From assembly GCA_018402345.1 (NCBI GenBank), contig JAGYIV010000012.1, positions 1 through 64,000 of the forward strand: DNA of 64,000 nt, written 5' to 3'. Shown piece by piece: positions 21,627-64,000 of this stretch. Under the pieces are notes generated by a model. The model saw nothing but the letters and a program-made list of their open reading frames with translations. It did no database searches and was not told the origin of the DNA. The position numbers and the translations under genes were made by a program. This DNA comes from Terrimicrobiaceae bacterium (lineage in GTDB: Bacteria; Verrucomicrobiota; Verrucomicrobiia; Chthoniobacterales; Terrimicrobiaceae). Every line of letters starts with the position of its first letter. Position 1 is the stretch's first letter.

Positions 21627-22697
21627 CTATGGCGCTGCGATTTTCGGGGGGACCAGAAACGTTAGAATCTGGGCGGGCATGTTGTTGGCCCGTTGGATAA
21701 GTCGGTCCACGGCGACTGCGATGATTTCTGAAAAGGAGAGATCGATCAGGAGCGGAGCGGGATGGAGGTCTTTGACGAAAAACGGGGTTGTTCCGGCGAT
21801 GGCGAGTTTGACGCTTCCGTCGTTCAGCAACCCCTCCTCGCGGAGCGCCGCGTGGACTTGGGGGGCGTGGGATTCCAGGGTCAGGAAAACCCCGACGGGC
21901 TTGGGCATGGAGCGGATCGCCGTCGCGACGGTTTTGAAATCCTCGAATATTGAGAGGGGTTGGGGCCAGAAGTTGGTGGGGTTGGAGTAGAGGTTTTTCG
22001 ACGCGAATACATGGGTGGGGATTGTTTCGATCTGGGCGCGGTCGGTGAAGGCGCGTCCGCGCACATAGAGGGCTTCAAGAAAGAAGCTCGAGGCATTGAC
22101 GAGAGCCATCGATTGGCAGCCCGCGTCTTTCAATGACCGAAACGCCATATCGCCCACGGCAACATCATTCACGGTGACATGATCGACGCTGAAAATAGGG
22201 TGTCCGGGGGCAAAAATATGAACGCACGGAATCATGCCGGCGAGTTTGGTGATGCACTCGCGGCGATTGGCCGGCCGGCCTGAGATCAAAAGGATGGCAC
22301 CATCCACCTGGCGGGTCTCCACGCACAGCGGGATTTGATCGGTCGAGGTCATTTGATCCAGCAGCAAGTTGAGTTGCCGGGCGCGGCAGGTGCTTTGGAT
22401 TTGCTCGACCAACGAGGCCATGATGGGTTCCTGAAACAAGGAGCCGCTGCCTCCGATGGAGATCAAGGCGATCGAGCCGGTGCGAAGGCGCAGGGGGTGG
22501 GGCGCGCGGGGTTTCGGGCCTGGCCGGACCGAAGGGCGGACATAGCCCAGTTTATCGATGGCTGCTTTAACGAGTGCGACGGTCTTCGCTTTGACCAAGG
22601 GACTGCCGTTGATCACCCGGGAAACAGTGGCCCGTGAAACTCCCGCAGCATTTGCAATGTCTCCAATATTTAAATCTGGCATTGCTGAAATATCCAT
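21627..22697 (-). CDS. LacI-family transcriptional regulator
   Basis: 356 residues. The N-terminal helix-turn-helix LNIGDIANAAGVSRATVSRVINGSPLVKAKT is a classic LacI DNA-binding domain, followed by a hinge (LGYVRPSVRPGPKPRAPH) and a periplasmic-binding-protein-like effector domain. An alternative start at Met6 (22682) would bring the HTH closer to the N-terminus, as is usual. Such repressors sense a sugar and control neighbouring carbohydrate genes. It lies between the esterase/lyase operon and the symporter/GH2 operon and could control either. The last 40 residues lack the usual LacI-type tail and look slightly divergent. Confidence 0.88.
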   Translation of the reverse strand: MDISAMPDLNIGDIANAAGVSRATVSRVINGSPLVKAKTVALVKAAIDKLGYVRPSVRPGPKPRAPHPLRLRTGSIALISIGGSGSLFQEPIMASLVEQIQSTCRARQLNLLLDQMTSTDQIPLCVETRQVDGAILLISGRPANRRECITKLAGMIPCVHIFAPGHPIFSVDHVTVNDVAVGDMAFRSLKDAGCQSMALVNASSFFLEALYVRGRAFTDRAQIETIPTHVFASKNLYSNPTNFWPQPLSIFEDFKTVATAIRSMPKPVGVFLTLESHAPQVHAALREEGLLNDGSVKLAIAGTTPFFVKDLHPAPLLIDLSFSEIIAVAVDRLIQRANNMPAQILTFLVPPKIAAP

Positions 22698-55171: not shown

Positions 55172-55441
55172 ATGGACGCTTCGCTTCAACGGCTTTTTTG
55201 GTGGGAGACCAAAACCCCTCCCTCCCCGCAGCGGATTGCCGCGCAAGTCATGGTCATGGGAACTCTTGATGACATTCAACGGGTTAGCGAACTCTATGGA
55301 GATCAAATTTTTTGCGAGGTTCTGGCCGATCCGCCACGCGGCCTTTTCGATGCAAAGTCTTGGGTCTTTTGGCACAAAAAAATGAATCGCACAACGATCC
55401 CTCCCCTTCCTTCCCAAGTTGTTGCGTGGCCCTCGTTATGA
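55172..55441 (+). CDS. Small partner of an AbiEii-type nucleotidyltransferase (antitoxin-like)
   Basis: 89 residues. DDIQRVSELYGDQIFCEVLA and LFDAKSWVFWHKKM recall the small protein regularly encoded before AbiEii-type toxins. It overlaps that gene by 4 nt (ATGA). TTGACA lies at 55137-55142, but no matching -10 at proper spacing is evident. Confidence 0.75.
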   Translation: MDASLQRLFWWETKTPPSPQRIAAQVMVMGTLDDIQRVSELYGDQIFCEVLADPPRGLFDAKSWVFWHKKMNRTTIPPLPSQVVAWPSL

Positions 55442-56073
55442 AATGGCACCTTGACATCCTGCCTTCGGTGCAAAGGGCACTTTGGGATTCCCGCATCTAC
55501 GCAGGATTTGCGGGATGGGTCCTCTACGGAGGGACGGCTCTGGCATTACGATTGGGCCACAGGGAGTCGGTTGATTTCGATTTTTTTTCAAGCAAACCAT
55601 TCGAACCGCTCACCTTCAAAGAGGAGCATGCGCTCCATGGCGAAGTATTGCAAGTGGGGCGCAACACGATCACGCTCCTGCATCAAGGAGTGAAGTTATC
55701 ATTTTTTGGGGGCTTGTCGCTCAAGGTTATTTCACCGCCCGACTCGATTGAAGCGTGTCGCATTGCTTCTCTGGATGATTTGGCCGCGTGCAAACTCGCG
55801 GCGTTGGTGAACCGTGTGGAACTCAAGGATTATCTCGATATCGTAGCGCTTCTTCAAAGTGGGATGCCCCTTGCTCACATGCTGGGATGCGCAAATGCCG
55901 TGTATCGTGGCGAATTTCCAGTCACCGCCTGCCTCAAGAGCTTGGCTTGGTTTGATGTCACGGAATTGGCTGAACTCCCAGAATCGCACCGGCTCATTCT
56001 TGAAAAAGCGGCGACCCAAGTGCACGCGATTCCGAAAATAGATGCGCTAACGAGTCTTATCGGCACCGTGTAA
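55438..56073 (+). CDS. AbiEii-type nucleotidyltransferase toxin
   Basis: 211 residues from the ATG at 55438. VLYGGTALALRLGHRESVDF with DFFS gives the GG(T/S) and D-x-D nucleotidyltransferase motifs of the AbiEii/DUF1814 family. DLAACKLAALVNRVELKDYL is the conserved Lys/Asp helix of the family. AbiEii proteins act as bacteriostatic or phage-exclusion toxins. With the small upstream gene it makes a TA pair next to the MoxR operon and a tRNA gene. Confidence 0.87.
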   Translation: MKWHLDILPSVQRALWDSRIYAGFAGWVLYGGTALALRLGHRESVDFDFFSSKPFEPLTFKEEHALHGEVLQVGRNTITLLHQGVKLSFFGGLSLKVISPPDSIEACRIASLDDLAACKLAALVNRVELKDYLDIVALLQSGMPLAHMLGCANAVYRGEFPVTACLKSLAWFDVTELAELPESHRLILEKAATQVHAIPKIDALTSLIGTV

Positions 56074-56183
56074 CTGGATCAATTACTCGAGCATGCCGAA
56101 ACTGCAGTGCTTCCCGTAAACCGAATCAGGGATTGTAAGAGATAGCGGCGTGGATCGCCACAGGAACTCTCATCAAATAGGGG

Positions 56184-56254
56184 AGCGGGTGAAGGGAATC
56201 GAACCCTCGTATGCAGCTTGGGAAGCTGCCGTTCTACCATTGAACTACACCCGC
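56184..56254 (-). tRNA. tRNA-Gly(CCC)
   Basis: The reverse strand folds as a complete 71-nt tRNA: acceptor stem GCGGGTG/CACCCGC, D-arm GTTC-AATGGTA-GAAC, anticodon stem GCAGC with loop TTCCCAA (anticodon CCC, glycine), and T-arm with TTCGATT loop. The discriminator is T; the following CCC shows that the 3' CCA is not encoded. Confidence 0.95.
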
Positions 56255-56724: not shown

Positions 56725-56736
56725 TTTTACGTTTAA
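56725..56736 (+). promoter_or_regulatory. Shared 12-mer, copy 1
   Basis: TTTTACGTTTAA 64 nt upstream of the Verru_Chthon_A-like start. Identical copies precede two other starts in this cassette. The CGTTT half resembles LacI-family operator half-sites. Confidence 0.6.
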
Positions 56737-56788
56737 TAGATCCCTGCGTGGCGTTTTCATGTCTTTACAGTAGGGTGCGATAGATTCC

Positions 56789-59700
56789 ATGGAGTCCCCT
56801 CCTCATTTCCCTTCCCGCAATCGTTCGGCATCGGCATTGCTTCTGGTGTTGGGCCTGATCGTGCTTGTCAGCGTGGTGGTGCTGGCATTTTTTGCGTCGG
56901 CGACGACTGAACGAACTGCGGCGCACACCCAAGCGAATTCGGAGGCCGCCCGCAATCTGTCCAACAACGCGCTCCAGTTTGCGATGGCTCAGATAAGCGA
57001 TGGGACAAAAGGTGGAACGGCGCAGGCACCGCTGGCATGGGCCTCGCAGCCCGGCATGATTCGCACCTACGACTCCTCGGGCAATCCTCACCGGTATCAC
57101 AAGCTCTACAGCGCGCAGAATATGACGGTGTCAAATCCCGCGAGTTTCAGTGTGGGTGAGGATGCTCCTCCAGCAGATTGGAGGTCGAGCCCAGCGGTAT
57201 GGACAGACCTGAATGCCCCGGTGGCCGGTGTGGACGGGACCTTGAACTATCCGATTTTGGACCCAGCGGCTCTGACAGGGACCGCCTCCGTGCAGCCCAG
57301 CGGATTTTCTATCACCAATCCTCCCGGCTACACCGGCGGGAATTCCACGGTAGACAACAACCGAGCCCCCATGCCGGTGCGTTGGCTCTACCAGCTCAAG
57401 GATGGCACGATGGTGCCCGGCGTGGGCTCTGGAAACACTGCCACAGTGGCGGGCGCCACCGCTGCGAACCCGATTGTTGGGCGCATTGCGTTTTGGACGG
57501 ATGACGAAACCTGTAAGGTGAACATCAACACCGCCGCCGAGGGGACCTACTGGGACACGCCGAGGTTCTACCCGGGCAACCAGGTGAACATGGGTGCGGT
57601 GATGCAAGGAAATCCCCGATTGCCCGTCCAGAGCGAGGCATGGAAGTATCCCGACGTGGCATTCGCCTGCTACCAGCCGGCCCGTTTCGAGTTTCAGCGC
57701 TATCCGGGCCACCCGGCGCAGGTCGCGCTCAGCTCGGTCTTTCCGTCAGTGACCTCACAAACGGCCACCAGCCTCACGCCAAGGTTGGTCTGGCAGGGAA
57801 CAACCGAAGCCAGCACCGTATGGGCTGGAAACTCGACCGTCGACCTCTCCCTTGCGCCGCGCAAGGCTCCCTACGCAACGCTGGATGAGTATCAGTTCAG
57901 TGGGGCCAGCACCAGCCCCCGCACCGCCAACAGCGCTGGAAGCTTACTTGGCAAGGCGGACATCGAGGCCGCCAAATTTTTTGCCACCGCCACCAGCCGG
58001 GCCCCCGAGGTGAATCTGTTCAATCTTCCACGCGTCGCTATTTGGCCCGTGGACAAAGATCTGGCAACCAATCCGGCCAGTCCGCGCACCACCGCTTTTG
58101 ACCGCCTGATCGCTTTTTGCTCGTCCACACTCAATAGCACGACTCGCCTGCCTTACTACTTCCAGCGATTCGACGCCCAGAGCCCAACCAACGATTATGC
58201 CAATATCCCGCGCAACCGAGAGCTTTACTCCTACCTCCAGCGGCTTACGGGCGATCCGGTGCCAGGGTTCGGGGGGCGTTTCAGCCAAAAATACCCCGCA
58301 GACCGTGACCAGATCCTCACCCAAATCTTCGACTATATCCGGTGCACCAATCTGGTGGATCCGAATCTGAGCGGTTTTCCCATCACCATGCCGGCGGTTG
58401 ATGGAAAAGCCTGGCCCCGTTTAGCCAACCAGTTCGTTCCGGCGATCAGGACGCTATCGAGCGTCAACGGCAGCAATCAGCTTCTCGGTTTGGGGCAAGT
58501 CATGCCCATCCGTATAGGAAACACGGTCGGCTTCGGACGCTTCGCCGCGCTCAAGGAGATTGCGTTTGCCTTTGTGTGTGTGGGGGATGGGGCCCTGCCG
58601 GACACAGCAACCTGCGACGATGCTGATGGAGTGAATGACTACATAGCCAGCTCCGCTTTGCCCACCAGTGCAGAGGTGGAAAAAATGGTGAGCAACATGC
58701 CTGCGCTCAACACCAACGGCTTGCCAGTGACTGCCCCGGCTGCTCCTGCGGTATCTGCTTATCTGGCGACAAACCCTGCGGAATGGACACGCGTCCGTCA
58801 AAAATGGAGCTCCGCAATTTCCACGCTGGTTGCCACGCGAATGGCGGCCAACTCCAACGATCCGGGATACAACCTCGCGCTGGAAGGAGCGGCGCTTTCC
58901 CCTACGGAACGGCGAGTTCAAATTATGGTCGTGTTTCGCCTCAACGTGCCTGCCGCTGGATTGGCGCAGTTCAATCCCGACCTGCTCATCCGAATTAGGG
59001 GGCTGGATAGCGTGAGCGTCGCAAATGCATTTAATATAGGCCCTTCCGGAGGAACTGGCTCATTATTCAGCCTGCCAGCCAATTGCACGGATTGGATTTA
59101 CAAGACCAAGGAACCTTGGTCCCGCGTTTATTCCAACCCTTTGAGTTTCGACTCGCTCATCGGGGGCACCAATTACTTCACGGGCCTCCGACCGCCTTGG
59201 TATTCCACGAAGCTCACCAATTTTCAACCCGTCACCGTCAACCGCCCGAGTCTTCCTTATTACCCATTTATCAGTAGGGGATTTACGGTGAACGGTCCAC
59301 TTTCCTTCAGCGGTGCCGATTTAACGTTCGAGCTTTACCAAGGGAAAAATGTTTATGATCCGAAGAACAACGAACTTGGAGGCAAATTCAAGGATCCCGG
59401 GGCGCCCTCGCTCGACAGTGTGCTCGGAAACTCCGAATGCCTTCACCAGACTGCAACTATCAGTTTTCCGGCAGAGAATGTTCCTTTACCCACGCTAAAT
59501 GTTACCAAATCGAATACCACGAACGATATGTTTAAGGTCGAAACCCGTCTTAAACCTGAGAATGATGGACAGAAGGTGCTTTCGGGTGACGATATTATTC
59601 GCTCGCGGTGTTTCAACGGGGATGGGCGGTTGGCTGCCTTGATGACGAATATCCCTGCAACGTCATTCGTTGCATATCCCTCCAACGGCAGCCAGTTATC

Positions 59701-60789
59701 CGACCGAAGCGGGTTAAGTCTTGCGAGTTACCCAATTGGCGGAACCGGCAGTCTGACGACGAGTTCCACAATGATCCCGCCGGGAACGGCAGTCACGACC
59801 GGAGACTTTGACATCGCCTGTCGAATGGGGCCAGGCGGGTTCATCAACAAGCCCGATGAGGGCGATAATTCGCGGGGCACTGGAGGTTCTCCGCCTTATT
59901 ATTTTTTCTCTCAGGACTCCTCCAACAGCCTGCTCTATACCCCCAACCGGATCATGCCATCGCCGGGCATGTTTGGGTCCCTGCCGACGGGAGCCAAGGC
60001 GGGAGTGGGGTGGAAGACCCTTCTTTTCCGGCCGCAACCGTCGCACCCGAGCCACTCGACGACGATTCCCGATCACCTGATGATGGATTTGTTTTGGATG
60101 CCCATCGTTGAGCCCTACGCCATCAGCGAGAACTTCTCGACGGCAGGCAAGGTGAACATGAACTACCAGATCCTGCCCTTTACCTATATCAACCGCCCGA
60201 CTGCATTGCTGGCCGCGATGAAGGTCGAGATGGGCACGGCGGTTCCGAATGGGGGGCTTCATTTATAATGCCCCTCCCGGCACCGGCGATCCGGTCACCG
60301 GCGGCGACCACCTGGCGGAAAAACCTCAACCTCAGCGAGACCAACGGCACGCTGCGGCAGTTCCGCGAGAAATTTGCTGCTGGAGAGATCTTCCGGTCCG
60401 CCAGCGAGATCTGCGATGTCTATCTTGTGCCCAGAGGAGAAAGCTGGACCTCCAATGCGACTGCCGCGGCCTTCTGGAACAATCACCTCAATACCCCCGA
60501 CAATCTCCGTGAAAAACCCTACACCAACCTCTACGCCCGCCTGACTACAAAATCGAACACCTTCACGGTGCATGTGCGGGCGCAGGCGTTGCAGAAGGTC
60601 CCCGGCACGCCGGCGGACCAGTGGGTCGAGGGGAGGGACAAGGTCGTGGCCGAGGAGCGCATCTCCACAGTGGTCGAGCGATACTTGGATGCCGATAGCG
60701 GCCTGCCGGACTTCGCCACCGATGCCAACGCCTTGCTCTCCGATTATTACAGGATGAGGGTTCTCAGCAATAAGCGATTCTCTCCATGA
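56789..60789 (+). CDS. Verru_Chthon cassette protein A-like (two frameshifts near the 3' end)
   Basis: A PilX-like N-terminus (SASALLLVLGLIVLVSVVVL then AFFASATTERTAA) is followed by a very long secreted-type body rich in Asn, Pro and Gly, matching my recall of the TIGRFAM family Verru_Chthon_A. The main frame stops at 60268. The conserved C-terminus (LNLSETNGTLRQFREKFAAG, then FRSASEICDVYLVPRG and LREKPYTNLYARLTTKSNT) is encoded downstream. The frames join if one base is removed from the G6 run at 60251-60256 and one from about 60305-60311. Corrected length about 1332 residues. Role unknown; the N-terminal helix suggests a pilus-related or inner-membrane assembly component. Confidence 0.85.
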
Positions 60790-60804
60790 TGATAATCCGT
60801 TAGG

Positions 60805-60816
60805 AAACACGTAAAA
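60805..60816 (-). promoter_or_regulatory. Variant of the shared 12-mer over the LacI start codon
   Basis: TTTTACGTGTTT on the minus strand, one boundary overlapping the ATG at 60816. Suggests autoregulation if the LacI protein binds this motif. Confidence 0.4.
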
Positions 60817-62015
60817 TGGCACGGAAAAAACCCGAAACAACAGCCAAGCCGATTTCCCTTCGAGAGGTGGCGCGTCTCGCGGGGGTTTCGCCCGCAACAG
60901 TCTCGTTGGCGATGAAAGAAAGCCCGCGGCTCGCGCAGGCCACCAAGGAGCGGATTCGCGAGATCGCGAAAGAGCAAGGATATCGGCCCAACCCGCGACT
61001 TTCGCGGATTCTTTCCGAGACTGTTACCTCGCGATACGACAAACGGGGAGGGTTGATCTACCTCGTTGTCACCCGTTACACGCGGAAGAGCTGGAATCCG
61101 GAAAATCCTTGGTTTCTTGCGATGTCAACCCGTTGTCGCGAGCTCGGCTACGTTCTTGAGCCATTCTGGATCTTCGAGCCCGGCCTGACTCCCGCCCGTG
61201 CCAACAAAATCATGTATAGCCGGGGTGTCGATGGGCTCATCATTCACCCGCCGGCATATTCGCTGCGCAGCGGCGAAAGCCTGACCCTTCCGATCGAGTG
61301 GGAGAAATTCTGTGTGGTGGAGATCGACGATGTGATCACCGAACCAGTTCTTCACCATGTCCGGCATGACCACCTCTCGGGAATCTGGCTCGCGCTCCAG
61401 GAAATGGAGTCCCTCGGCTACCGACGGATCGGTTTTTGTCTTTCGCCAGATATCGATTTTGCCACCCACCATCGCTGGACAGCCGGCTACAGCTACTGGG
61501 CTGACACTCGCGGCTTGACCGGCCCGATTCGTTCTCCCTTGTTGTTTGATGGAAATCCTAAAGCCGTGCGAAAGTGGGTGAAAACCAATCGTCTGGATGC
61601 TGTCCTTGGACCTTCCTGCGAAATTCTTTCCGCCATGCAGGAAAGCGGACTGCGGGTTCCGAACGATGTGGCTTTTGCGGCGCTGGATGTGATGGGCAAT
61701 ACGTCCGGATTTACGCAGGAATTTGACCATTCGGGCTTAGACACTTCTTCACTTGGGCATGGTATCGCAGGTATCTTCCAATGCCGGGATGAGCAGTTCA
61801 CCCTCGCGGTGGACATGATCGCCGCTTTGATCGCACGACAATTCCGAGGGATACCAGACCCCTCATCAACGTGGATTCTTTCCGGTAAATGGCAGCATGG
61901 TGCGACGTGCCCTGCTCGCTCCGGCAAAGTGCATGCCGCGCTCACAGGCGAGGGGATTCCCCCGTTTCGCAAGCTTCCGAAGGCCTTGCGAAATAAGCCT
62001 GGCGGGGGGCATTGA
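60816..62015 (+). CDS. LacI-family transcriptional regulator
   Basis: 399 residues. ISLREVARLAGVSPATVSLA and the following MKESPRLAQATKERIREIA are a LacI-type DNA-binding domain with hinge helix. The effector domain (GLIYLVVTRYTRKSW, GVDGLIIHPPAYS, SLGYRRIGFCLSPDID, VPNDVAFAALDV) is the periplasmic-binding-protein fold of LacI/XylR-like regulators. It sits inside the Verru_Chthon-like cassette between A and B, so it probably regulates the cassette and the downstream pectin-lyase-fold gene in response to a sugar. Confidence 0.9.
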   Translation: MARKKPETTAKPISLREVARLAGVSPATVSLAMKESPRLAQATKERIREIAKEQGYRPNPRLSRILSETVTSRYDKRGGLIYLVVTRYTRKSWNPENPWFLAMSTRCRELGYVLEPFWIFEPGLTPARANKIMYSRGVDGLIIHPPAYSLRSGESLTLPIEWEKFCVVEIDDVITEPVLHHVRHDHLSGIWLALQEMESLGYRRIGFCLSPDIDFATHHRWTAGYSYWADTRGLTGPIRSPLLFDGNPKAVRKWVKTNRLDAVLGPSCEILSAMQESGLRVPNDVAFAALDVMGNTSGFTQEFDHSGLDTSSLGHGIAGIFQCRDEQFTLAVDMIAALIARQFRGIPDPSSTWILSGKWQHGATCPARSGKVHAALTGEGIPPFRKLPKALRNKPGGGH

Positions 62016-62067
62016 TGGTGTGGGCGGCTACGGATCGTTCGTCTCCGTCTCGATCGGTGCATTGGTG

Positions 62068-62079
62068 TTTTACGTTTAA
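62068..62079 (+). promoter_or_regulatory. Shared 12-mer, copy 2
   Basis: TTTTACGTTTAA 61 nt upstream of the first start of the Verru_Chthon_B-like gene, followed by AGGAG. Confidence 0.6.
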
Positions 62080-62128
62080 CATTAGGAGAGTTGAGGGACG
62101 ACTCATAAAGTGTCACATTTAAAAATTC

Positions 62129-62551
62129 ATGGTTTTCCTCCCTCAATACCGCAAGATGCGGCAGGCATTCAGCCTCGTCGAAGTGGTGATGGCGCTTGGA
62201 TTGATTTCGTTCGTCCTTGTCGGGCTTTTAGGTTTGATGTCGGTCGGCTTGGGTGGAATTCGAAATGCGAGCGATGAATCATCGTCGGTCATGATTGCCA
62301 AGAAACTGGTCGCGGAGATTGGGCAAAATTCGCTCGACGACATTTTGGTGTCCACATTTTCCGATCGCTGGTTTGATGCGGAAGGGCAGGAGGTCCCGGC
62401 CACAGATCCGTTTGTCGTTTACAGGGCAACAGCCAGCGCGGAACTCAACCCCGGCCCGCCGGAGAACCTCGGGAAAATTGTTGTCAGCGTCCAGCATCAC
62501 GCTGGAGTTGAGCCTCCAAGGATATGGGTGTCCTATGTTGCGGGGAATTAA
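62129..62551 (+). CDS. Verru_Chthon cassette protein B-like prepilin
   Basis: 140 residues. MRQAFSLVEVVMALGLISFV is a type IV prepilin signal with Glu5 after the cleavage site and a long hydrophobic helix. An internal ATG at 62156 would give the short leader usual for prepilins and may be the true start. The rest (MIAKKLVAEIGQNSLDDILV, FDAEGQEVPATDPFVVYRA) matches the size and layout of Verru_Chthon_B. It overlaps the next gene by 17 nt. Confidence 0.83.
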   Translation: MVFLPQYRKMRQAFSLVEVVMALGLISFVLVGLLGLMSVGLGGIRNASDESSSVMIAKKLVAEIGQNSLDDILVSTFSDRWFDAEGQEVPATDPFVVYRATASAELNPGPPENLGKIVVSVQHHAGVEPPRIWVSYVAGN

Positions 62552-63635
62552 GCGCAGAAGTCTCTCAGCTTTCACGATTCTCGAGGTGCTTGTCGCGAGC
62601 GTCGTGCTTGCACTGATTCTTGTCGTTATGGTCGGGGTCATTGATTCCGTTCAAAACACCCACCAGCGCTCCATGGCCCAGATCAAGGCGTTCCGGGAGG
62701 GGAGGCAGGCGGTGGATGTGATTTCCACCGCCCTTTCGCAAGCCACCCTGAATTCCTACCTCGACTATGTGGACGCAAGCGGGCGTTATCGGTTTCGTGC
62801 TGGAGGCAACGCGGCTTCGTTTGTTCCGGCCTCCTACAAGCGCACCTCGGAGCTTCGTTTCCGGAGCGGCAATCTACCAGAGGTCTCCACGGTCCGGCGT
62901 CCGTCCCATGCGGTCTTTTTTCAGGCGCCACTGGGTCTGGTCGGCTCGGGCTCCGCTGACACCGGACTCGAAAACCTGCTCAACTCGCTGGGTTTTTTCA
63001 TTGAGTTTGGCGATGACGTGGGGCAACGGCCGGATTTTTTTGGCAACCTCCCGAGCCAGCCGCCTTTTTCCTATCGCTATCGGTTGGTCCAGGCCATTCA
63101 ACCGGCTGAAAGTTTAACCCTCTACAATGAAACCGCTGCGAACCCCGGCTTGAAAAGTTCGGACGCCAACGGATTGCGCTGGCTTACCGACACGCTCGGC
63201 AGCGTCCGGCGCGTCGTCGCGGAGAACATCATCGCGCTTGTCGTCCTTCCGAAGCTCGGTGCTGCGGACCAGCAGAAGGGAGGCTACTCCGACGGGTCGC
63301 TCGCCCCGGATTATCTCTACGACTCGACTGTCGGGCGCTCCGACCCCATGCTCAACTCCAGCAGCCAACTCCCCCCGGTCGTCGAGATCACCTTGGTGGC
63401 GGTCGATGAAAAATCGTATGCCCGGTTTCAGGGGGATTCAACCACTCCCCGCGACCTCGGGCTTGACACGCTTTTCCAAACCGTCGGAGACACGATCAAT
63501 CCTGCCAATCCCGGCTACGCACAAGACTTCAAAACCCTTGAAGAGACCCTGACGCAAAACCGTATCGATTACCGGATTTTCAAGGTGTCTGTTCCAATAA
63601 AATCTGCGCGATGGAGCCGAGACCAAAAAGATTAG
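62535..63635 (+). CDS. Verru_Chthon cassette protein C-like prepilin
   Basis: 366 residues from the ATG at 62535, inside the end of the B gene; earlier frame extension is shadow. SAFTILEVLVASVVLALILV is the prepilin signal. AFREGRQAVDVISTALSQATLNSYL and ELRFRSGNLPEV are characteristic of Verru_Chthon_C/GspJ-like minor pseudopilins. The C-terminus is IKSARWSRDQKD. It would be a minor component of a pseudopilus assembled with B and a major subunit not seen here. Confidence 0.85.
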   Translation: MLRGIKRRSLSAFTILEVLVASVVLALILVVMVGVIDSVQNTHQRSMAQIKAFREGRQAVDVISTALSQATLNSYLDYVDASGRYRFRAGGNAASFVPASYKRTSELRFRSGNLPEVSTVRRPSHAVFFQAPLGLVGSGSADTGLENLLNSLGFFIEFGDDVGQRPDFFGNLPSQPPFSYRYRLVQAIQPAESLTLYNETAANPGLKSSDANGLRWLTDTLGSVRRVVAENIIALVVLPKLGAADQQKGGYSDGSLAPDYLYDSTVGRSDPMLNSSSQLPPVVEITLVAVDEKSYARFQGDSTTPRDLGLDTLFQTVGDTINPANPGYAQDFKTLEETLTQNRIDYRIFKVSVPIKSARWSRDQKD

Positions 63636-63665
63636 CCGCGACCGTCCCCTGCGCTGGAGTGGCAG

Positions 63666-63677
63666 TTTTACGTTTAA
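63666..63677 (+). promoter_or_regulatory. Shared 12-mer, copy 3
   Basis: TTTTACGTTTAA 61 nt upstream of the ATG of the last gene. Same spacing as copies 1 and 2. Confidence 0.6.
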
Positions 63678-63726: not shown

Positions 63727-64000
63727 ATGTTGCAAATCCAAACAATTTTCCAACTTCTCCCCCAATCGCTATCCCGGCACATCGCCGACAACCCATTTAA
63801 GCGGACTCTTCGCAAGCTGAGCGCCATTCGGATGATGACTTTCATGTTCCTGAGTGCGGGTTGTCTGGAGGCAGGAACCCAGACAGAAAGCTCCGTCTCG
63901 ATTCTTGACTTTGGAGTGAAGCCCGGCTCCGGGCAGGATGCCACGCCTGCGATTCGCCAGGCGATCGAGGAATGCCGGGCGAAAGGGATCAAGCGATTGG
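63727..64000 (+). CDS. Pectin-lyase-fold polysaccharide-degrading protein, N-terminal part
   Basis: Cut by the window end; 91 codons are visible. A start at 63727 gives a 35-residue extension; the in-frame ATG at 63832 gives MMTFMFLSAGCLEAG, a short signal peptide with a lipobox-like SAGC. Then SVSILDFGVKPGSGQDATPA and IRQAIEECRAKG match the beginning of GH28/pectate-lyase-3 beta-helices. Likely a lipoprotein or secreted polygalacturonase-like enzyme co-regulated with the upstream cassette. Confidence 0.75.
   Translation, partial: MLQIQTIFQLLPQSLSRHIADNPFKRTLRKLSAIRMMTFMFLSAGCLEAGTQTESSVSILDFGVKPGSGQDATPAIRQAIEECRAKGIKRL

Follow-up and report, generated by a model that had tools for sequence, protein, structure and literature searches.

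The stretch of DNA analysed here, referred to as the window, is the first 64,000 nucleotides (nt) of contig JAGYIV010000012.1 (denoted C6, the window being C6:1-64000) from a Terrimicrobiaceae bacterium whose genome (GCA_018402345.1) comprises 3,136,542 bases in 17 contigs. In the right-hand part of the window, a 12-mer word, TTTTACGTTTAA, recurs on the plus strand before plus-strand genes of a Verru_Chthon cassette, among which lies the gene of a LacI-family regulator, and before the gene of a glycosidase relative. The first exact copy (56725..56736) is 64 nt 5' of the gene for Verru_Chthon cassette protein A, which is divided into a main part (56789..60268; profile positions 3-1102, TIGR02600 659.8 bits, cut-off 332.3) and a C-terminal part in another frame (60268..60789; profile positions 1122-1296, 182.8 bits, alone below the cut-off). 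The frames meet at a TAATG junction (60266-60270) near a run of six G (window 60249-60313), and the full-length protein A matches listed in relatives have no internal stop, unlike this split copy, which is either a broken gene or an assembly error. The regulator gene (60816..62015) encodes 399 amino acids with a helix-turn-helix (HTH) domain at residues 15-59 (PF00356, 54 bits, gathering score 27) and a Peripla_BP_3 domain at residues 197-291 (PF13377, 33 bits, gathering score 26.5), which place it in the LacI family. A second LacI-family gene is found on the minus strand at 21627-22667, where the neighbours resemble, by eye, an esterase and an MFS transporter and there is no 12-mer nearby.

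The second exact copy (62068..62079) is 61 nt 5' of a Verru_Chthon cassette protein B homologue (62129..62551; TIGR02598 49.7 bits, slightly below the cut-off of 51.4), which is followed by the gene for cassette protein C (62535..63635; TIGR02599 296.6 bits, cut-off 256.5). The third (63666..63677) is 61 nt 5' of the ATG at 63727 of a gene that begins in the window (63727..64000) and runs to C6:65598. An earlier note on this DNA had described its product as a pectin-lyase-fold protein; more exactly, it is a relative of GH110 α-1,3-galactosidases (PDB 7jw4, 514.1 bits; GLAA-B barrels). The three distances given in that note, counted from first base to first base, are confirmed, the last of them on the assumption that translation starts at ATG 63727, since an in-frame GTG is only 22 nt from the word.

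These genes begin a cluster that spans 56.8-136.3 kb of the contig: Verru_Chthon A in its two frames, LacI, and Verru_Chthon B and C. After the B-C pair come the GH110 relative, an SDR protein, a UxuA-like protein, a GH2 protein, FucP (504.7 bits, cut-off 280.4), and MFS and SSF symporters, and further along a GH95 protein (FucOB, 7znz, 556 bits), a CE2-like esterase, a GH29 protein and a TRAP transporter. Verru_Chthon D (TIGR02596 143.1 bits, cut-off 70) is encoded behind a SASA esterase, and then come beta-helix, GH43, GH29, SASA, GH116-type and DUF5703 proteins. A catabolic run consists of an SSF symporter, a RhaM-type mutarotase, an SDR protein, an L-fuconate dehydratase (2hne, 378 bits), a fuconolactonase-like amidohydrolase (FuconLaconase model 112.9 bits, below the cut-off of 400), a second SDR protein and a hydrolase with 8gsr, an L-2,4-diketo-3-deoxyrhamnonate hydrolase (259 bits), as its best relative of solved structure (rhamnonate-hydrolase model 339.6, below the cut-off of 500). 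The cluster ends with a gene that by eye resembles an autotransporter and has no Pfam match, another GH116 protein and an RbsD/FucU-type protein. With this gene content, in which FucP, GH95/FucOB, GH110, L-fuconate dehydratase, and the fuconolactonase-like and diketo-deoxy-rhamnonate-hydrolase-like proteins fit one pathway, the 76 kb resembles a cluster for the utilisation of fucosylated glycans. GH110 together with GH95 would fit B-antigen-like ends (Gal α-1,3 on fucosylated galactose), making glycans with such ends a candidate substrate.

Copies and placement of the word

A genome-wide scan found nine exact copies of the word, all of them within the 76 kb of C6:56725-132285, and no copy of the reversed control. 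Allowing one mismatch, there are 14 copies in the genome, 13 of which fall in the same stretch (18 for the reversed-pattern control). The earlier note had named random scatter through the genome as one outcome that would refute its proposal, and this is contradicted by the scan. In the taxonomic order as a whole, the word is present in 21 of 213 genomes, with nine copies here and 24 in the other 20, at most two in each; outside the source genome, no contig of the other 212 genomes carries it twice, and its occurrence there is sporadic. The consensus of the 13 cluster sites is [G 11/13]TT[T10/C3]TACGTTTA[A 12/13], for which the preferred writing is [G]TT[T/C]TACGTTTAA. In the form GTTTTACGTTTAAC it is CG-centred, with five of seven positions pairing over 14 nt, and the central CG is invariant in all 13 sites. 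No other column in the flanks is strongly conserved; two are weakly so, at +15 and +24 (0.9 and 0.8 bits).

By our own gene calling, hand-adjusted, on which all counts of placement and distance rest, 12 of the 13 sites are intergenic, whereas intergenic DNA makes up 14.4% of the stretch (p 9e-10). The thirteenth, at 97554, partly coincides with the end of a broken Fic gene, and ahead of it is a 33-nt block found also before site 99471; for these reasons it is probably a dead duplicate, and it was excluded from the counts of orientation and distance. In the surrounding DNA (C6:96407-99407, L011:2407-5407), inside the cluster, a 104-nt direct repeat is present in five copies around a PDDEXK_3 gene and the broken Fic gene. 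It is extremely improbable that the copies are an artefact of chance or composition, or a repeat that spread with duplicated upstream regions. The duplicated block before 97554 and 99471 is what such a spread would leave, but apart from this pair the flanks appear unrelated, all nine exact copies are concentrated in 2.4% of the genome, and none of 100 dinucleotide shuffles of the window contained an exact copy, which bears out the earlier statement that the copies at 56725, 62068 and 63666 are not expected by chance.

From the first base of the site to the same-strand start codon, the distances for the 12 intergenic sites are 64, 61, 61, 172, 60, 105, 57, 91, 112, 354, 200 and 118 nt. The constant spacing described from the window thus holds for its three sites (64, 61 and 61 nt) but not for the whole set, which ranges over 57-354 nt; 57-64 nt is found at five of the 12, and a band of 140-30 nt before starts takes in nine. 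At 11 of the 12 the word is oriented as the nearest start on either strand. The exception belongs to two exact copies in opposite orientation, 24 nt from start to start (89912 and 89936; C6:89912-89947, L010:15912-15947), which share the gap from which the SASA-D genes and a beta-helix gene diverge; its partner serves the other gene. Position on the coding strand before genes, in five cases 57-64 nt from the start, would also suit an element of the leader RNA that affects translation or transcript stability. We regard this as very improbable, given the variable distances, the lack of strong flanking conservation, and an Rfam search of C6:54001-134000 in which only a tRNA reached the gathering score.

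Orientation and near-invariance would likewise be explained if the word were a promoter element of a dedicated sigma factor. This is improbable: the distances are too variable, the site alignment lacks a second conserved hexamer, and no sigma factor was found among the 41 cluster proteins scanned with Pfam, a set without the frames at 126.8-131.7 kb and without short or doubtful ones at 67.7, 82.7, 90.0, 109.0 and 127.0 kb. In addition, sigma-70 elements (-35/-10 pairs) that use the word score no better than in shuffled sequence and were rejected, as 768 and 757 of 1000 shuffles reach the sums observed over the 12 sites.

Boundaries of the cluster and related loci

The left edge of the cluster is marked by a tRNA-Gly (CCC) gene (window 56182-56254, minus strand), and an AbiEii-type nucleotidyltransferase gene (window 55312-56073, plus strand) lies immediately to the left. 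No 14-base repeat of the tRNA-Gly region was found in C6:1-154000, and a tRNA-flanked integration with repeated ends was therefore rejected. The right edge is before 136494, the start of a gene resembling, by eye, a ketoacyl synthase. In the sister genome (G009), tRNA-Arg and tRNA-Gln come after the matching gene, together with genes that resemble AspS and HisS by eye, and no tRNA was found at the corresponding place after the ketoacyl-synthase-like gene here. Because the surroundings of the matching gene differ, the cluster is probably a lineage-specific insertion or rearrangement. The data are consistent with the cluster, its regulator and its sites travelling together.

Homologues of the cluster LacI were detected in 61 of the 213 genomes at E 1e-20, the source genome included, and none in the genus is close. 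Broader searches of genome contigs and viral contigs gave no close homologue, and two weak partial matches among the genome contigs. Verru_Chthon_A proteins above the cut-off were found in 43 of 213 genomes, with at most two candidates scored per genome. We then compared positions of the two genes in three genomes with many cassette copies, using 2000 within-contig permutations in which the largest coordinate seen was taken as the contig end. After A-gene fragments had been merged, and A matches below the family cut-off and one LacI match below its cut-off dropped, 33 A genes and 121 LacI matches were left (in one genome, G052, 38 of 47 candidates were scored). A LacI HTH lies within 5 kb of 17 of the 33 A genes (permutation mean 5.2, none reaching 17) and within 10 kb of 23 (permutation mean 8.3, none reaching 23). 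Within 2 kb there is no clear excess (4 of 33, 2.2 expected), and when an HTH profile from 26 of 45 loci was applied to 30 genomes, none had a LacI gene about 1.5 kb or less from its best Verru_Chthon_A gene.

CG-centred intergenic repeats were sought in 22 Verru_Chthon-LacI regions of 40 kb. One was clear (log10 p -8.2), one suggestive (-3.8) and 20 gave none (0 to -2.1). As benchmarks, the two halves of the present cluster score -12.9 and -7.4, and ten control regions, hand-picked from a single contig of genome G101 away from LacI hits, score 0 to -4.4. In the clear region, on contig C2 of G101 (L122:10927 to L123:8865), the CG palindrome CACATCCGGATGTG and close variants occur at five places. 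One precedes a B-C-A-D run in which A (978 bits), C (306) and D (124) score above their cut-offs and B (31.7) below; two more are found 47 nt upstream of a GH4 gene and 6 nt upstream of an unscanned gene. The fourth is at the start of a LacI gene (PF00356 51 bits), 91 nt from the more likely of its two possible start codons, and the fifth lies 56 nt before the gene of a PATR/PEP-CTERM protein. TTGACA precedes the palindrome at two of the five. A shared operator, of different sequence, is thus found at one further locus at least, and by this method most cassette-LacI pairs are without one. The suggestive case is ATCACACGTGTGAT, also in G101, with three sites that are well placed but within the control range (log10 p -3.8). 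In genome G098 (contig C31, L171:13453-13554), there are two ACGT-centred near matches to the word, the nearer of them 51 nt before a polysaccharide lyase gene, with Verru_Chthon B, C and A next in line and a LacI homologue of 37% identity at a distance of 5 kb.

Probable control by the LacI-family regulator

The LacI gene is the sole gene for a DNA-binding regulator identified by the Pfam scan of the 41 cluster proteins, and this, with the CG-centred site, makes LacI the likeliest candidate for the protein that binds the word. Since lacI starts 26 nt past the end of the A reading frame, the two genes could be under joint control of the site at 56725. The earlier note had also placed a near copy of the word over the LacI start. 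A partial copy, TTTTACGTGTTT, is indeed present on the minus strand at 60805..60816 and ends on the A of the LacI ATG, but it has three mismatches, and at that stringency the window holds 30 matches where 21.0 ± 4.6 are expected. Its 8-base part, TTTTACGT, is more discriminating: ten of its 11 occurrences in C6:1-154000 are 12-mer sites (nine exact, one with one mismatch), and the only other falls on this LacI start. Autoregulation of lacI appears plausible because a site precedes the A-lacI run and the partial copy lies on the LacI start.

Because the word is confined to one cluster and precedes cassette genes and glycosidases alike, with 12 of 13 sites between genes, it is probably the operator through which the LacI-family protein of 60816-62015 acts as a dedicated local regulator, with about a dozen sites in a fucosylated-glycan cluster of 76-80 kb, and the regulator is most likely a repressor and autoregulated. 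The local regulon is real: the sites, their confinement and placement, the gene content and the regulator family are direct observations; control of the regulon is best read as exercised by LacI. The earlier proposal, in which a regulon joins the pilin-like cassette to enzymes of glycan degradation, is well supported, since the word precedes both kinds of gene within a single 76 kb cluster.

Several findings weigh against control of this cluster by LacI as set out above. The genome has four LacI HTH genes besides that of the cluster. The word is near-invariant, an imperfect palindrome without strong extension, and its fixed orientation, which a symmetric operator would not need, is an oddity that the LacI model leaves unexplained. 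No -35/-10 pair was found at a fixed offset from the word. Two pathway proteins are equally close to rhamnose enzymes (RhaM and the rhamnonate-type hydrolase), and for this reason the sugar of the catabolic run is not certain: fucose is preferred and rhamnose is possible, substrates being assigned by homology. Among relatives, no full-length LacI homologue above 37% identity was found in the 213 genomes (at most eight candidates scored per genome), none of 12 regions round LacI homologues has a comparable operator cluster, and the operator search drew a blank in 20 of 22 Verru_Chthon-LacI regions. The near-match pair in G098 was rejected as a transferred operator, its score of 13.5 being ordinary among 34 regions (best scores 5.6-18.9).

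The five LacI HTH genes, and an imperfect palindrome in fixed orientation, would also be accommodated if the word were the operator of a different regulator, either another of the five or a factor encoded elsewhere, with the cluster LacI having another or an additional site. We consider this unlikely, because the exact copies all surround the cluster LacI, with none near the other LacI gene at C6:22.5 kb, and because the lone stray TTTTACGT in 154 kb coincides with the cluster LacI start.

If the word is the operator of the cluster LacI, the protein would bind about a dozen sites ahead of putative transcription units comprising the A-lacI genes, the B-C pair, the GH110 gene, GH29 genes (twice), the SASA esterase-D pair and two solute symporters, and the L-fucose catabolic run would be controlled from the site before one of these symporters. 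LacI would most likely repress its targets, its own gene among them, until released by a glycan-derived sugar, probably L-fucose or a metabolite. LacI proteins ordinarily act in this way, sitting at promoters as repressors until a pathway sugar releases them.

The system is of a known kind with an unusual set of members. The LacI-family survey of Ravcheev et al. 2014 (PMC4052901) covers 1303 factors and describes their motifs as inverted repeats of high conservation, mostly even palindromes of 16-22 nt, with a central CG for 1173 of the factors; more than 75% of sites lie between 140 and 30 nt ahead of starts, and autoregulation applies to 72% of factors. Against this norm, the word fits in its central CG and its placement (nine of 12) and poorly in symmetry and length. 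Like the local carbohydrate regulons described there, in which autoregulation is common, the present one combines one LacI-type factor with CG-centred sites, mostly in the 140-30 nt band, and sugar catabolic targets; it differs in having about a dozen sites over 76 kb, in its oriented, imperfect site of 13-14 nt, and in the pilin-like cassette among its targets. The term 'Verrucomicrobi' does not occur in the main text of that survey.

In Bacteroidota, polysaccharide utilisation loci bring together glycosidases, transporters and a local regulator for each glycan class. The present cluster is similar in these respects and dissimilar in its LacI regulator and in having no SusC/SusD-type match among the 41 Pfam-scanned proteins. 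As in the Verru_Chthon cassette (TIGR02596, TIGR02598-TIGR02600), homologues of A, B, C and D are present (A, C and D above the curated cut-offs), and A, the B-C pair and the SASA-D pair each lie behind an operator site. In contrast to that cassette, the LacI gene stands between A and the B-C pair, D is separated from C by 24 kb and lies behind the esterase, A is broken into two frames and B is just under its cut-off. A literature search by name and by the four TIGR numbers found no paper describing a function of the Verru_Chthon cassette, and none was found that ties a LacI regulator of Verrucomicrobiota to a fucose regulon, or to polysaccharides and pseudopilins; for fucose-related gene clusters a single paper, on Gramella, was listed.

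Verru_Chthon cassettes are pseudopilin-like and present in many copies in some genomes of the order. We tentatively suggest, as a possibility we would not yet favour, that they may be substrate-specific machines for glycan capture or export, each switched on together with one glycan cluster through a LacI repressor and a private operator of its own. Operator sites common to the cassette, GH110, GH29 and fucose-type catabolic genes point to growth on fucosylated glycans as the expected expression condition, and because the shared sites supply this condition, the role of the cassette becomes testable. The association with LacI in three other genomes suggests that the link may be general; if so, it would offer a route to predicting the glycan served by each cassette.

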